A stretch of DNA of 46,771 nt from Gemmatimonadota bacterium (GTDB taxonomy: Bacteria; Gemmatimonadota; Gemmatimonadetes; Longimicrobiales; Gaopeijiaceae), in NCBI GenBank assembly GCA_022822425.1, contig JAJEBS010000127.1, positions 1 to 46,771 on the forward strand, written 5' to 3'. The notes beneath the pieces were generated by a model, which was given only the letters and a program-made list of their open reading frames with translations, ran no database searches and was not told the origin of the DNA. The translations under genes and the position numbers were made by a program. Of this stretch, positions 9,788 through 14,463 are shown piece by piece. Each line of letters starts with the position of its first letter. Position 1 is the first letter of the stretch.

Positions 9788-10234
9788 ATGGCATCGCAGG
9801 ACGAACGGCAGCGTACGCTGGAGGGGATGGTTTCGCGGGTTGGTCGCCGCTTTCCGGATGTGAAGACGATCAGTCCGGCGGAGCTGCGCGAGCGCCTGCC
9901 CGACGACGACACCGTTCTCGTCGATGTCCGGTCTCCCGCCGAGCGGGCGGTGTCCACGCTGCCCGGCGCCATCACCCCCGAGGAATTCGAGGACCGGCTC
10001 GACGATCTGGGGGACTGTACCGTGGTCGCCTACTGTACTCTGGGAGCACGTAGTTCAAGGTACGCCCGCCGGATGGGAAAGAGGGGCGTTCCGGTGCTGA
10101 ACCTGAAGGGAAGCCTGCTTGCGTGGACGCACGAGGGCGGCGAACTCACCGATGGCCCGTCGCCCACGAAGCGGGTCCACGTCTTCGGGCGCAGGTGGAA
10201 TCTGGCCGCGGACGGATACGAGGGCGTTTGGTAG
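9788..10234 (+). CDS. Rhodanese-like domain protein
   Basis: A 148-residue single-domain rhodanese. The domain runs from about residue 27 (ISPAELRERL) through VLVDVRSPAE to the active-site loop CTLGARS with Cys83, the Cys that carries a persulfide in sulfurtransferases. The loop composition fits a sulfur carrier rather than a Cdc25-type phosphatase. There is no signal peptide, so it is cytoplasmic. The ATG at 9788 is preferred for the GGGTGA about 7 bases upstream; a GTG at 9779 is in frame. It follows the formyltransferase gene by 10 bases and its stop overlaps the likely start of the next gene, so it is probably co-transcribed with both. Confidence 0.88.
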   Translation: MASQDERQRTLEGMVSRVGRRFPDVKTISPAELRERLPDDDTVLVDVRSPAERAVSTLPGAITPEEFEDRLDDLGDCTVVAYCTLGARSSRYARRMGKRGVPVLNLKGSLLAWTHEGGELTDGPSPTKRVHVFGRRWNLAADGYEGVW

Positions 10235-11082
10235 GCCGCGCCACCGCGCTCCTCCTCCTGCTCGCGCTCGCGGGCGAGGCCAGCGCGCAGATTCCGCAGA
10301 TCCCCCTCCCCCCCGAATGGTCCAACTCCAGCGAGTTCAGCTTCATCCAGACCCGGGGCAACACGGAATCGACCACGTTCGGGCTCGCCAACGAACTGAT
10401 CACGGAGTGGGAGCGGACCGAGACCAAACTGGAGTTCGGAGCACTGCGCACGAACACCACCCGCTTCAAGCGCTCCGCCATCGGCACTGCCGACGACTAT
10501 CGGGTCGAACAGGAAAGCGAGACCCGGGTTTCCGCCGAGAACTACCACATCCGCTTGCGCGGCGACCGCGAATACTCGGAGCGGTCGTCGGTGTTCGGCC
10601 AGCTGGGATGGGCCCGCAACACCTTCACCGGCATCGATGGCCGCTACGTGCTGGTCGCCGGCATGTCGACGCGGTGGATGGAGGACGAAGTGCACCAGCT
10701 GCGCAGTTCCTACGGGCTCACCGTTACCAGGCAGGACGACGTGGTGCCCGATCCCGACGCCGCCAAGACCTTCCTCGGACTCCAGGTCTCCGGCGAATAC
10801 GAGATCCAGCTGACCGACAATACGGAATTGAAGAGCACCCTGGTGGTGGACGAGAACGGCTTCAATCCGGCGGACCTGCGCGCGGACTGGGTGACCTCGC
10901 TGGGCGTCTCGATGAGCGAGCATTTCGGGCTGCAGGCCAAGTTCCAGTACCTGTTCGACAACCGCCCGTCGCTGGTCGACGTCCCGCTGACCAGCATGCA
11001 GGGGGAGTCCACGGGCAAGGTGCCCATCCCGCTGGACAAGTCGGACCGGGTGCTGACCATGGCGCTGGTGGTGAATTTCTAG
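10228..11082 (+). CDS. DUF481-like outer-membrane beta-barrel protein
   Basis: A 284-residue secreted protein resembling DUF481 (putative salt-induced outer-membrane protein). After a clear Sec signal peptide (cleavage ASA-Q), the sequence is a series of alternating amphipathic strands, including FSFIQTRGNTEST near the mature N-terminus, and it ends in VVNF, the terminal aromatic expected of BAM substrates. The start is uncertain: TTG at 10228 overlaps the rhodanese stop and has GAGGG upstream, GTG at 10195 is an alternative, and the frame remains open back to 10123. It is the last gene of the run that begins at 6773. Function unknown; probably a small barrel in the outer membrane. Confidence 0.78.
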   Translation: MVGRATALLLLLALAGEASAQIPQIPLPPEWSNSSEFSFIQTRGNTESTTFGLANELITEWERTETKLEFGALRTNTTRFKRSAIGTADDYRVEQESETRVSAENYHIRLRGDREYSERSSVFGQLGWARNTFTGIDGRYVLVAGMSTRWMEDEVHQLRSSYGLTVTRQDDVVPDPDAAKTFLGLQVSGEYEIQLTDNTELKSTLVVDENGFNPADLRADWVTSLGVSMSEHFGLQAKFQYLFDNRPSLVDVPLTSMQGESTGKVPIPLDKSDRVLTMALVVNF

Positions 11083-11109
11083 GTTTCGGGGCCGCCGGCC
11101 TGTATGGGT

Positions 11110-12144
11110 TCAGTCTCCGGACGGCCCCGGCTTGCGAGCCAGAAGGAAGAACATCGGGGTGAAGATCCCGGCCTTGCCACCCGCGACCAGCGCGTCCGCA
11201 GTCCTGTTCAACAGCGAACTGACCGCGACCGCGCCATCGGGAAAGACCCGCAACTTCTCGCCAACCCTCAACACCCGATTCGACAGGGCGCGTCCAATGG
11301 GCGTGCGCGGGATACTCCGGAGGCTGAGGTCGCGACCCTGCAGGGCACGGTACCACGGCGTTGTCGGGTCCGATGCGGAGGCGCGGTCGCCAGATTCGAC
11401 GACTTCGAATCCCGCCGCGCGCAGTGCGGTGCCGATTTCAAGCGTGCGGGCGATTTCCGGAAGCGCATTCCCCGCCACGATTCCTTCCTTGATCCGCATG
11501 TGCTCTGCGTTCCCGGGATCGAAATCCTCGGTGAGGCACCAGTCGTAGCCCGCCAGACAGGCGCCAGGACGCAGGACGCGCAAAATCTCCCGGAACGCAG
11601 CCGTCTTGTCCGGTGCGTGCGGCATGGACTCGATGGCGATCGCGGCATCGTACCGGTCGTCGCCGTCGGGGATCTGCATGTAGTCGCCGTGGATGAAGCT
11701 GCACAATGACCGGACATCACGAGTGTGAGCCAGAGCGCGCTCAATCTGGTAGGCGTTGTTGTTGAGCCCGACGAAGCTGGCCCCGGCGTAGCGGGCAAGC
11801 GCGGCCATCGGCCCCCCGACACCGCACCCTACATCGAGCACCCTCATTCCGGGCTTGAGCGCCAACCGGTCGGCGAGAAAGCGCTGGTGCCTCAGCAGCG
11901 ACGCCTCGAAGCTCTCTCCCCGGCGCCGGGGGGCAAAGTGAAAGGACGGCCCCCAGCCGAACTCGTAGAAGTCCGTCACCAGGTCGTAGTAGTGATTGAC
12001 GAACGACCGATAGTGCTCTTTTCTGCGCTCCGAACCGGCATTGTGGATCCCGGTGTACCGGTCGACCACTGATTTCACTTCATCCGGGGCAAGATCCGCG
12101 AGGGAACGGGGGTTCGGTTGTTTTGCGGCGGGCGTATCAGTCAT
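11110..12144 (-). CDS. Sterol 24-C-methyltransferase homologue (ERG6-like)
   Basis: A 344-residue SAM-dependent methyltransferase that matches yeast ERG6 along almost its whole length as I recall that sequence. Visible are the sterol-binding region I, YEFGWGPSFHF (residues 60-70; yeast YEYGWGSSFHF), the SAM motif LDVGCGVGGP (103-112), GLNNNAYQIERA (126-137), IESMPHAP (171-178; yeast IEATCHAP), the GYDWCLT region IV (199-205), and a sterol-MT C-terminal domain with PWYRAL and AGGKAGIFTPMFFLLARKP. Eukaryotic SMTs add methyl groups to C-24 of the sterol side chain. The ATG at 12144 is chosen over an upstream GTG at 12177; neither has a strong ribosome site. No signal peptide. The gene stands alone on the minus strand and no sterol synthesis gene is in the window, so the substrate may be imported or made elsewhere. 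Confidence 0.9.
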   Translation of the reverse strand: MTDTPAAKQPNPRSLADLAPDEVKSVVDRYTGIHNAGSERRKEHYRSFVNHYYDLVTDFYEFGWGPSFHFAPRRRGESFEASLLRHQRFLADRLALKPGMRVLDVGCGVGGPMAALARYAGASFVGLNNNAYQIERALAHTRDVRSLCSFIHGDYMQIPDGDDRYDAAIAIESMPHAPDKTAAFREILRVLRPGACLAGYDWCLTEDFDPGNAEHMRIKEGIVAGNALPEIARTLEIGTALRAAGFEVVESGDRASASDPTTPWYRALQGRDLSLRSIPRTPIGRALSNRVLRVGEKLRVFPDGAVAVSSLLNRTADALVAGGKAGIFTPMFFLLARKPGPSGD

Positions 12145-12477
12145 CGCATCATGTGGTCGCGTTTGCACGATTGACACGCGCCAGGGAGATCACAACCCGT
12201 TCATTACCGAGACTAATCGCGATCCAGGGGCTTCGGCGCATGACGTTATCGCGTCTGTCGGACAGCGTGCAAGGGGACTCGCGGCGGACGGCGGCCCGCG
12301 CGTCGGTGGACAGTCCGAAGATGACGGCGACCGTTTCACGGGCGTGGATCTTCCGCCCGCAGGCCTGCCCGATGATTCCATGAGGGGCCCGGGGCGCGAT
12401 TGCCCCATTTGCGCGAACCCGAGGGTTTTTCGACTTTTTCAGGCCCGACATTCGATCCGTTGCATGGAGTAACCGAG
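12145..12477. other. 333-base divergent intergenic region
   Basis: This stretch separates the sterol-methyltransferase gene from the propeller operon and should hold both promoters. I see no convincing gene in it. It contains a small hairpin (GGGGC at 12391-12395 and GCCCC at 12402-12406) and two five-T runs at 12426-12430 and 12435-12439, close to the operon start. No clear -35/-10 pair could be chosen by eye. Confidence 0.5.
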
Positions 12478-14463
12478 ATGAAGATCCATCCTGCCCGCGT
12501 CCTTTGCTTCCTCGCCCTGCTCGCGCTCGGCGCGTCGTCCCTCGCCGCCCAGGAACCTGCGCGCATCGTCGTGGACGAGGGGGTGCTCACCCTCCAGCCC
12601 GGTGAGAGCGGACAGATCACCGCCAGCGTCGTCGATGCCGACGGGAACGCCGTCGATGCCCCGATCATGTACATGGCCCGGGGCGCGCGCGGGCGTCTGG
12701 ACGTGAACAGAACCACCGGCGCGGTCGAGGCCGTGTACGGGGGTGAGTACCTGGTCACCCTGATGGTCGCCACGGACCGGAACATCCGCGCCGAGATGAC
12801 CGTCTCGGTGCCGTACCCGGCGCTCGACCGGGTCGAGATCTCGCCGGGCGAGAACGGGCGCTTCTACGTGGGGACGGTGATGCGCCACCGGGCCACCGTG
12901 TACGACGCGGTCGACGATGTCCGCGGCGACGTGGAGCTGGGCTGGAGCACCAGCGACGAGTCGGTCGCCAGCGTCGATCGCTTCGGCGTGTTCAGCGCAC
13001 ACGCTCCCGGCCGGGTCACCCTGACCGCGGCCGCCGAGGGAGTCGCCGGCGAGGTGGAGTACGACGTGGTCGCGAGCCCGGTTACCTCGATTTCGCTGTC
13101 GGGGAGTCAGGAGGTGGGCCGCACCGGTGACGTGATCCGCTTCGAAGCCGCGCCCATGGCGGGCGACGAAGCCAGCGACATTCCCGTGACCTTTTCCGTC
13201 ATCCCCTACGCCGACATCGAGGCCACCGCGGACTTCGCGCCCGCCGAGATCGACCAGGAGGGCCGCTTCGTGGCGTACCGGCCGGGCGTGTATACCGTCA
13301 TGGCCGCCGTGCCCGGCCACTCGGCCAACCAGACCATCCGCATCGAGCCGCGCAACGTGAGCGAGACGGTGGAGTTCATCGGCCAGGGCGCGGTGCAGGA
13401 CGTTCCCACCTCCGACCTGTGGGTGTGGGAAGGCATCGACGGGCGCGACTACGCCATCACCGGCACCTGGGGCGCCTACGGTGCGACCTACTGGTGGGAC
13501 GTGACCGACCCGGCCGCCCCGGTCATGACGGACTCGCTGGTGGTGGACGCGCGCACCACCAACGACGTGAAGGTCTCCGAGGACGGCCGCGTCTGCGTGA
13601 TCTCGCGCGAGGGCGCCTCCAACCGGCGCAACGGCATCGTCATCGTGGACTGCTCGGACCCGCGCAACGTCGAGATCCTCTCCACCTTCGACGACGAGCT
13701 GACCGGCGGGGTCCACAACGTCTTCGTCTACGACAATCACGTGTACGCGGTGAACAACGGCGTCCGCTTCGACGTGATCAACATCGAGGACCCGACCAGC
13801 CCGCACCGGGTGGGCCGCTTCGAGCTGGACACCCCCGGCCACGGCATTCACGACATCTGGATCGTGGACGGGATCGCCTACACTTCCAATTGGGCCGACG
13901 GGGTGGCGGTCATCGACGTGGGCGGCGGCGACCGGGGCGGCAGCCCCTCCAACCCGGTGCTCATGACCAGTTTCGCCGACATCGGCGGGGCGACCCACGC
14001 GGCCTTCCCGTACTGGAGCCCGACCGGGCGCTTCTACATCTTCATGGGCGACGAGATCGGCCGCCCCGGCTTCAACGACCTGGACGCCGAGCGCACGCCC
14101 CCGCGCATGGCCGGCTACATCCACGTCGTCGACTTCACCGATCCCAACAACCCCGAGGAGGTCGCGCGCTACGAGATCCCGGAGGCCGGGTCGCACAACA
14201 TGTGGATCGACGGAGATCGCCTCTACGCGGCCTACTACAACGGCGGCACCCGCGTCATCGACATCTCCGGCGAACTCAAGGGCAACCTGGGCCTGCAGGG
14301 GCGCGAGATCGCCCACTACGCCGCCAACGACCCCGACGCCTTCGTGCCCAACGCGCCCTTCAGCTGGGGCCCGCAGATCCACAAGGGCCACCTGTTCATC
14401 GCCGAGCACCACTCGGGGCTCTGGTCGGTGAGGCTGCAGCCGAGGAGGACGCTGGTTCCGTGA
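12478..14463 (+). CDS. Secreted LVIVD-repeat beta-propeller with Ig-like domains
   Basis: A 661-residue exported protein. The signal peptide is residues 1-24 (cleavage after SLAAQ). Residues about 28-305 form three bacterial Ig-like (Big_2-type) domains, recognisable by ITASVVDADGNAV, the WSTSDESVASVDRFGVFSAHAPGRVTLTA pattern and a third similar unit. Residues about 315-655 are a beta-propeller of LVIVD type, with repeats such as VIDVGG, VVDFTDPNNPEEVARYE and VIDISG and several His-containing HNVF, HDIW, HNMW turns. Such proteins are extracellular or surface bound; their ligands are mostly unknown. The start at 12478 has GGAG 8 bases upstream. Its stop overlaps the GTG of the next gene (GTGA), so it heads a translationally coupled three-gene operon. 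Confidence 0.88.
   Translation: MKIHPARVLCFLALLALGASSLAAQEPARIVVDEGVLTLQPGESGQITASVVDADGNAVDAPIMYMARGARGRLDVNRTTGAVEAVYGGEYLVTLMVATDRNIRAEMTVSVPYPALDRVEISPGENGRFYVGTVMRHRATVYDAVDDVRGDVELGWSTSDESVASVDRFGVFSAHAPGRVTLTAAAEGVAGEVEYDVVASPVTSISLSGSQEVGRTGDVIRFEAAPMAGDEASDIPVTFSVIPYADIEATADFAPAEIDQEGRFVAYRPGVYTVMAAVPGHSANQTIRIEPRNVSETVEFIGQGAVQDVPTSDLWVWEGIDGRDYAITGTWGAYGATYWWDVTDPAAPVMTDSLVVDARTTNDVKVSEDGRVCVISREGASNRRNGIVIVDCSDPRNVEILSTFDDELTGGVHNVFVYDNHVYAVNNGVRFDVINIEDPTSPHRVGRFELDTPGHGIHDIWIVDGIAYTSNWADGVAVIDVGGGDRGGSPSNPVLMTSFADIGGATHAAFPYWSPTGRFYIFMGDEIGRPGFNDLDAERTPPRMAGYIHVVDFTDPNNPEEVARYEIPEAGSHNMWIDGDRLYAAYYNGGTRVIDISGELKGNLGLQGREIAHYAANDPDAFVPNAPFSWGPQIHKGHLFIAEHHSGLWSVRLQPRRTLVP

Follow-up and report, generated by a model that had tools for sequence, protein, structure and literature searches.

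A solitary sterol C-24-methyltransferase-like gene of a Gemmatimonadota bacterium at a site that is empty in seven same-genus genomes

Does a Gemmatimonadota bacterium carry a working sterol C-24-methyltransferase (SMT), and if so, how did the gene reach its present site and whose sterols would the enzyme alkylate? The gene in question lies in the window, i.e., the whole 46,771-nt stretch of DNA analyzed here, where a preliminary description had placed it at 11110-12144, with no strand given. The open reading frame (ORF) was correctly recognized, but that interval starts at an internal ATG (12144, residue 12 of the 355-aa ORF), which is an alternative start of the gene; the full frame occupies 11110-12177 of the minus strand (Table 1). 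The motifs quoted at the time, YEFGWGPSFHF, LDVGCGVGGP, IESMPHAP, and FTPMFFLLARKP, were all found in the encoded protein and, together with the ORF and a Sterol_MT_C domain, confirmed the observation of an SMT-like gene as a whole. Region I, the aromatic sterol-binding stretch Tyr81-Phe91 of Erg6p, was delimited as defined in PMC5711494.

Table 1. Coordinates of the SMT-like gene, its motifs, and its surroundings in the window
Feature	Position	Strand	Basis or remark
Left neighbor, DUF481 protein	10123..11082	+	Left boundary of the stretch lacking in relatives falls at its stop codon
Segment missing in seven same-genus genomes	11084..12405		SMT gene plus ~230 bp upstream of it
SMT-A-type sterol C-24-methyltransferase-like gene	11110..12177	-	GTG start, 355 aa; ORF, Pfam, identity, tree
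Sterol_MT_C domain (PF08498), residues 291-350	11128..11307	-	Pfam
IESMPHAP, residues 182-189	11611..11634	-	Counterpart of yeast IEATCHAP (194-201)
SAM-binding motif LDVGCGVGGP, residues 114-123	11809..11838	-	ORF translation, Pfam
Region I, YEFGWGPSFHF, residues 71-81	11935..11967	-	Counterpart of Tyr81-Phe91, Erg6p numbering
Right neighbor, LVIVD-repeat protein	12478..14463	+	ORF extends to 12400 with alternative start

The Pfam match to Sterol_MT_C (72.1 bits versus a cut-off of 21.7; E = 4e-20) means that the similarity of the window protein to this family is not due to chance, and a Methyltransf_11 core lies N-terminal to it. Identity amounts to 46% with Arabidopsis SMT1 and 41% with yeast ERG6 over 84 to 87% of the protein. 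The relatedness to SMT/ERG6 beyond the SAM fold that had been claimed from the outset holds over most of the protein length. Residues Y81, E82, H90, D125, E195, and H199, numbered according to the yeast sequence, are all retained. The AlphaFold model, built with 33 aligned sequences, is confident except for residues 1 to 23 (pLDDT 87.5) and displays a class I SAM-methyltransferase fold. It is very unlikely that the protein is instead a methyltransferase of the tocopherol, ubiquinone, cyclopropane fatty acid, or secondary metabolite kind. Its SAM core does resemble UbiE, CMAS, and RebM/MitM-type models or structures, as would that of many class I enzymes, and the Pfam models CMAS (residues 54-261) and Ubie_methyltran (98-208) exceed their lower Pfam cut-offs. 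Most of the solved structural neighbors (50 listed of 1961) are methyltransferases of small molecules, and they include geranyl-diphosphate C-methyltransferases, which likewise methylate an alkene. The 38 solved sequences and the 50 listed of 1961 structures in the PDB contain none named as an SMT, with the exception of 6f5z, one of the 38 sequences, which carries the name "24-sterol C-methyltransferase" but which we take to be an archaeal Trm112 partner rather than a true SMT. Against such an assignment, the NCBIfam matches (25 of 27 listed) all fall below their cut-offs and cover the SAM core, with no sterol model among them, and within these the curated cut-off for cyclopropane, ubiquinone, or mycolic methyltransferases is not reached. 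The presence of Sterol_MT_C and Region I, the near full-length similarity to SMTs, and a tree in which the outgroups L079 and L081 fall outside argue in the same direction. A non-sterol methyltransferase was accordingly rejected on the basis of the Pfam domain, the sub-cut-off NCBIfam matches, and the tree.

This tree was derived from a scan of genome contigs with an alignment, from which the best 80 of 299 loci were kept; it comprises 72 rows, with two outgroup methyltransferases (L079 and L081, no tocopherol methyltransferases as such) and two sequences as the only eukaryotic references. The window protein groups with sterol C-24-methyltransferases, apart from the outgroups, in a 15-row clade (SMT-A; support 100/99) within which its genus contributes three rows (99/99). 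SMT-A unites this genus with metagenome-assembled genomes (MAGs) titled Rhodospirillaceae, Gammaproteobacteria, Verrucomicrobiota, Acidobacteriota, and Chloroflexota, the phylum labels being those of the MAG titles. Its members are apparently mostly sponge symbionts, as suggested by titles such as Spongia_Bin9, project names, and PMC9531527. The two eukaryotic SMTs occupy a separate branch, beside other bacterial SMTs, with weak support (83/49). That bacterial SMTs occur in uncultured bacteria, as the preliminary description stated, is correct. Its emphasis on the change from IEATCHAP to IESMPHAP near the active site was overstated: 7 of the 15 rows of SMT-A carry exactly this motif, and 10 of 15 have proline in place of the yeast Cys198. 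We consequently dropped the idea of an active-site oddity peculiar to the window gene. Glutamate at yeast position 246 is replaced by valine, methionine, or isoleucine in 13 of 15 rows, and by valine in the window protein. Purifying selection is visible on the clade, with dN/dS values of 0.18 to 0.36 for 21 pairs of its members.

The best overall explanation is very probably a functional bacterial sterol C-24-methyltransferase that belongs to an apparently transferred SMT clade and is solitary here. From what is known of the family, the enzyme would transfer the methyl group of SAM to the delta-24 double bond of the sterol side chain, with 24-methylene or 24-methyl sterols as its predicted products. 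The SMT-A clade apparently spread by horizontal transfer; in other symbionts the gene often adjoins a cluster of squalene-epoxidase/oxidosqualene-cyclase, CYP51, and ERG24 genes, and in the lineage of the window a solitary copy lies between the DUF481 and LVIVD genes. The replacement of Glu246 throughout most of the clade counts against this explanation. Among the 24 homologues from bacteria that Brown et al. (2023; PMC10070321) tested in vitro, 8 of 10 from sponge symbionts and 12 of 14 of environmental origin proved able to methylate sterols; the 4 of 24 that, by arithmetic, were inactive on the two substrates also weigh against it.

A new observation made here is that the site of the SMT gene is empty in seven genomes of the same genus (G001, G002, G004, G007, G008, G009, and G010), in which the DUF481 and LVIVD genes directly adjoin. 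The left flank match ends at 11083 (11098 in G001), and the right one starts at 12406 in five genomes, at 12384 in G009, and at 12457 in G001; the gap between both matches is 9 bp in G004 and 103 bp in the more distant G001. Visual inspection, which covered the empty-site sequences of six of the seven genomes, made evident no transposase or target-site duplication at the segment edges. Plasmid records offered no close relative of the window either, as each of the 165 that matched had less than 60% identity. G005 carries the SMT at the same site as the window, within 14.6 kb of 93% identity. The G003 stretch matches the window in the SMT alone, and its copy thus sits at another site. Given the seven genomes of the genus with an empty site, an insertion is more probable than several independent losses, and acquisition in the lineage of G005 and the window's own bin (G000) would be the simplest reading of these alignments. 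However, the right-flank tree leaves G000, G005, and G009 unresolved, which, together with the different location of the G003 copy, makes gain no more than probable and counts against the best explanation. So does the lower conservation of the SMT between the window and G005 (90.4% DNA identity) than of DUF481 (96.3%) and LVIVD (96.0%); a nearby formyltransferase gene is lower as well, at 92.8%.

Among window ORFs of at least 100 aa, no relatives of the epoxidase, cyclase, CYP51, or sterol reductase of the bin were detected (E 1e-8), and tblastn of sterol-pathway proteins against the window gave no epoxidase, cyclase, CYP51, or ERG24 match (>45% identity kept). The earlier statement that no sterol synthesis gene is nearby is therefore true of the window, but the bin does contain contigs with epoxidase-cyclase, CYP51, and ERG24 genes. 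We inspected 18 SMT-A loci, 14 of them in the tree and four (G189, G199, G311, and G326) assigned by 83 to 86% identity alone. A full epoxidase-cyclase, CYP51, and ERG24 cluster adjoins the SMT in eight loci (L021-L024, L027-L029, and L039), in seven of which (L021-L024, L028, L029, and L039) the SMT is convergent with the cyclase. Cluster remnants accompany it in two (ERG24 only in G311 and a C-terminal cyclase piece in G199), and it is solitary in the other eight (L025, L026, L038, G003, G005, G189, G326, and the window), where "alone" is not absolute since the compared stretches range from 11 kb to 47 kb. In the loci of G311 (L214) and G199 (L215), gamma-butyrobetaine-hydroxylase-like and HD-domain genes, named by eye, separate the SMT from the residual ERG24 or cyclase piece, as though a former sterol cluster had been disrupted. 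Separately, positions 6293-11035 of L027, from a MAG named Candidatus Versatilivorator vitaminiformans, form a single open frame of 1581 codons that spans squalene epoxidase, oxidosqualene cyclase, and SMT with no intervening stop, possibly a three-enzyme fusion judging from the reading frame.

Sterol_MT_C occurs in 10 of 59 genomes: 9 of 11 in the genus (own included), 1 of 24 in the other family set, and 0 of 24 in the order set. In the phylum sample, the window protein as query (E <= 1e-50) retrieved an SMT in 32 of 395 genomes and 5 of 138 genera. These 32 genomes plus G005 were checked for cyclase, and its N-domain was found in 5 of the 33 (G000, G004, G005, G112, and G199). Such rarity supports the view, to which we assign somewhat less than an even chance, that a bacterium without sterol synthesis tailors sterols from the sponge or from neighboring symbionts. 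The isolation of the window SMT points the same way, and so do G311, whose SMT has ERG24 in its vicinity but neither a cyclase nor a CYP51 relative within 19 kb, and no cyclase match genome-wide, and a propylating SMT reported from a Chlamydiae MAG that has no further homologues of sterol synthesis genes (PMC10070321). Nevertheless, all epoxidase-cyclase genes of the window's genus lie on contigs of 3.1 to 6.6 kb and the MAGs are incomplete, so that cyclase absence is weak evidence; moreover, 24 of the 28 cyclase-less SMT genomes carry only SMTs 42 to 48% identical to the window protein, and the window's own bin does hold the cyclase contigs C91 and C130, described below. SMT-A itself has seven carriers in the phylum (G000, G003, G005, G189, G199, G311, and G326), three of which (G000, G005, and G199) possess a cyclase domain. 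G003 has an epoxidase fragment only, at a contig edge, and no cyclase match was obtained in G189, G311, and G326, which are 94 to 96% complete. Conversely, G004 and G112 combine an epoxidase-cyclase with an SMT of another type, and hence SMT-A and cyclase do not always go together.

The opposite reading is that the bacterium makes its own sterols and that the SMT contributes one reaction to a de novo pathway whose genes are scattered (epoxidase-cyclase, CYP51, ERG24, SMT). The bin holds three epoxidase-cyclase contigs of 3.6 to 6.6 kb (C91, C239, and C130), one of them with CYP51 and ERG24 and one probably mis-binned. C130 carries, in this order, the end of ERG24, CYP51, the epoxidase, and the first part of the cyclase; among solved proteins, CYP51 comes closest to its P450 (367 bits). 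The C91 cyclase has the DCTAE motif and is 70% identical to that of C239, the sole cyclase domain of the bin compared against the PDB, where its best match is human lanosterol synthase (283 bits versus 69 for squalene-hopene cyclase). The bin also contains a squalene/phytoene-synthase family gene, and G005, which shares both the SMT and its site with the window, carries a cyclase as well, on a 5.5-kb contig. All this favors home-made sterols, yet the three contigs are short in a bin with 5% estimated contamination, and the squalene-synthase candidate scores 118 bits against an NCBIfam cut-off of 287. Furthermore, 6439 of the 6559 bp of C239 (L019) match a 54-kb contig of a different genus (G112:C75, L217) at 99.97% identity, only the final 118 bp of C239, at the contig edge, being unmatched there. 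By comparison, the DUF481 and LVIVD genes beside the window SMT differ by ~4% or more even from same-genus genomes. C239 is thus probably mis-binned, with a very recent transfer of the epoxidase-cyclase as the alternative. For C91 and C130, the best DNA identities over long stretches are 77% and 88%, with no near-identical twin among the sequences compared, which does not prove that they belong to the bin. The cyclase-less state of G189, G311, and G326, the lone epoxidase fragment of G003, and the different SMT type that accompanies the epoxidase-cyclase of G004 speak further against a de novo pathway. Our initial view that the cyclase contigs made such synthesis likely was dropped after the C239 match; as things stand, the chances of this pathway are close to even but on the lower side. 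Accordingly, home-made and sponge- or neighbor-derived substrates are about equally likely, and the preliminary interpretation as a whole is partly supported, its suggestion that the gene may alter sterols taken from a host or the environment being one of these two readings. The presence of one probably foreign sterol contig might also suggest a chimeric bin in which the window contig is non-bacterial or comes from outside the genus. The extended match to G005 and SMT flanks 83 to 95% identical to those of seven further same-genus genomes make this scarcely credible. As to the phylum, gene content and relatives titled Gemmatimonadetes or Gemmatimonadota (L062, L069, L070, and L074) suggest Gemmatimonadota. 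The 16S gene of G003, from the same genus, matched 572 plasmid records, none with 90% identity or more; in the 30 listed the maximum is 81.1%, and the gammaproteobacteria there (78.8 to 80.4%) come no closer than Geobacillus, Bacillus, or actinobacteria.

Across the phylum, whose members here are apparently sponge symbionts, SMTs may outlive the sterol pathway or travel without it. We hold it possible, though less likely than not, that solo SMTs, inserted or left behind in cyclase-less genomes, methylate sterols supplied by the sponge or by other symbionts. If so, bacteria incapable of sterol synthesis would be the makers of some of the 24-alkyl sterols in sponges, and should an SMT work in a bacterium without the pathway, genomes would have to be searched for SMTs even where cyclase is absent. 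24-Alkyl sterols and the fossil steranes derived from them serve as markers of eukaryotes, and 24-isopropyl steranes are taken to indicate sponges; these interpretations lose force with every bacterial SMT that works. The window contributes a lineage and a clean insertion site to this picture, no new principle.

Bacterial SMTs of this kind were already described in 2022 and 2023 (PMC9531527, PMC10070321), and the window adds one more to them. The sections of these two papers at hand contain neither an empty-site insertion nor counts of SMTs without cyclase, and the literature search returned no other paper naming bacterial SMTs in its title or abstract opening. The SMTs of Brown et al. belong to the same enzyme family and come from uncultured and sponge-associated bacteria; for 13 of the 24 tested, the cluster or MAG also contains a homologue of the cyclase (PMC10070321). 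In symbionts of Ircinia sponges (Microbiome 2022; PMC9531527), steroid gene clusters were reported in 115 of 537 MAGs from 10 phyla, Gemmatimonadota included, with evidence of horizontal transfer for three core cluster genes. ERG24-CYP51-ERG7 is usually followed there by SMT1/ERG6 or FDFT1 at the 3′ end on the opposite strand, and SMT1/ERG6 occurs in MAGs whose genes are often scattered. The convergent SMT-A loci with full clusters (seven of eight: L021-L024, L028, L029, and L039) reproduce the Ircinia-type layout, whereas the window SMT stands outside any cluster, at a site that is empty in relatives.

Within the genus, a second type of SMT (type B, e.g., in G009:C61) also has Sterol_MT_C and is 44 to 46% identical to the window protein, but it differs in an altered Region I (FMVFHWGESLHF) and in its neighbors, an RND transporter and a GPP34-P450 fusion. 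At the G009 locus (L124, 8049-18289), the type B gene is flanked by an AcrB-type RND transporter, the GPP34-P450 fusion, an MpaB/Lcp-type oxygenase, and an ORF that starts with a steroid 5-alpha-reductase-like stretch; DNA similarity to parts of this neighborhood also appears in loci whose titles name Chloroflexi, Acidobacteria, and Gemmatimonadetes. Five of the six type B genomes of the genus lack a cyclase match, G004 having one, and G002 possesses two unlike SMTs, of types C and B, on separate contigs (L121 and L122). Finally, the window protein and eukaryotic SMT1/ERG6 share Region I, the SAM motif, and Sterol_MT_C at 41 to 46% identity to the references, but the former sits on a separate branch and has proline for Cys198 and valine for Glu246 at the yeast positions.
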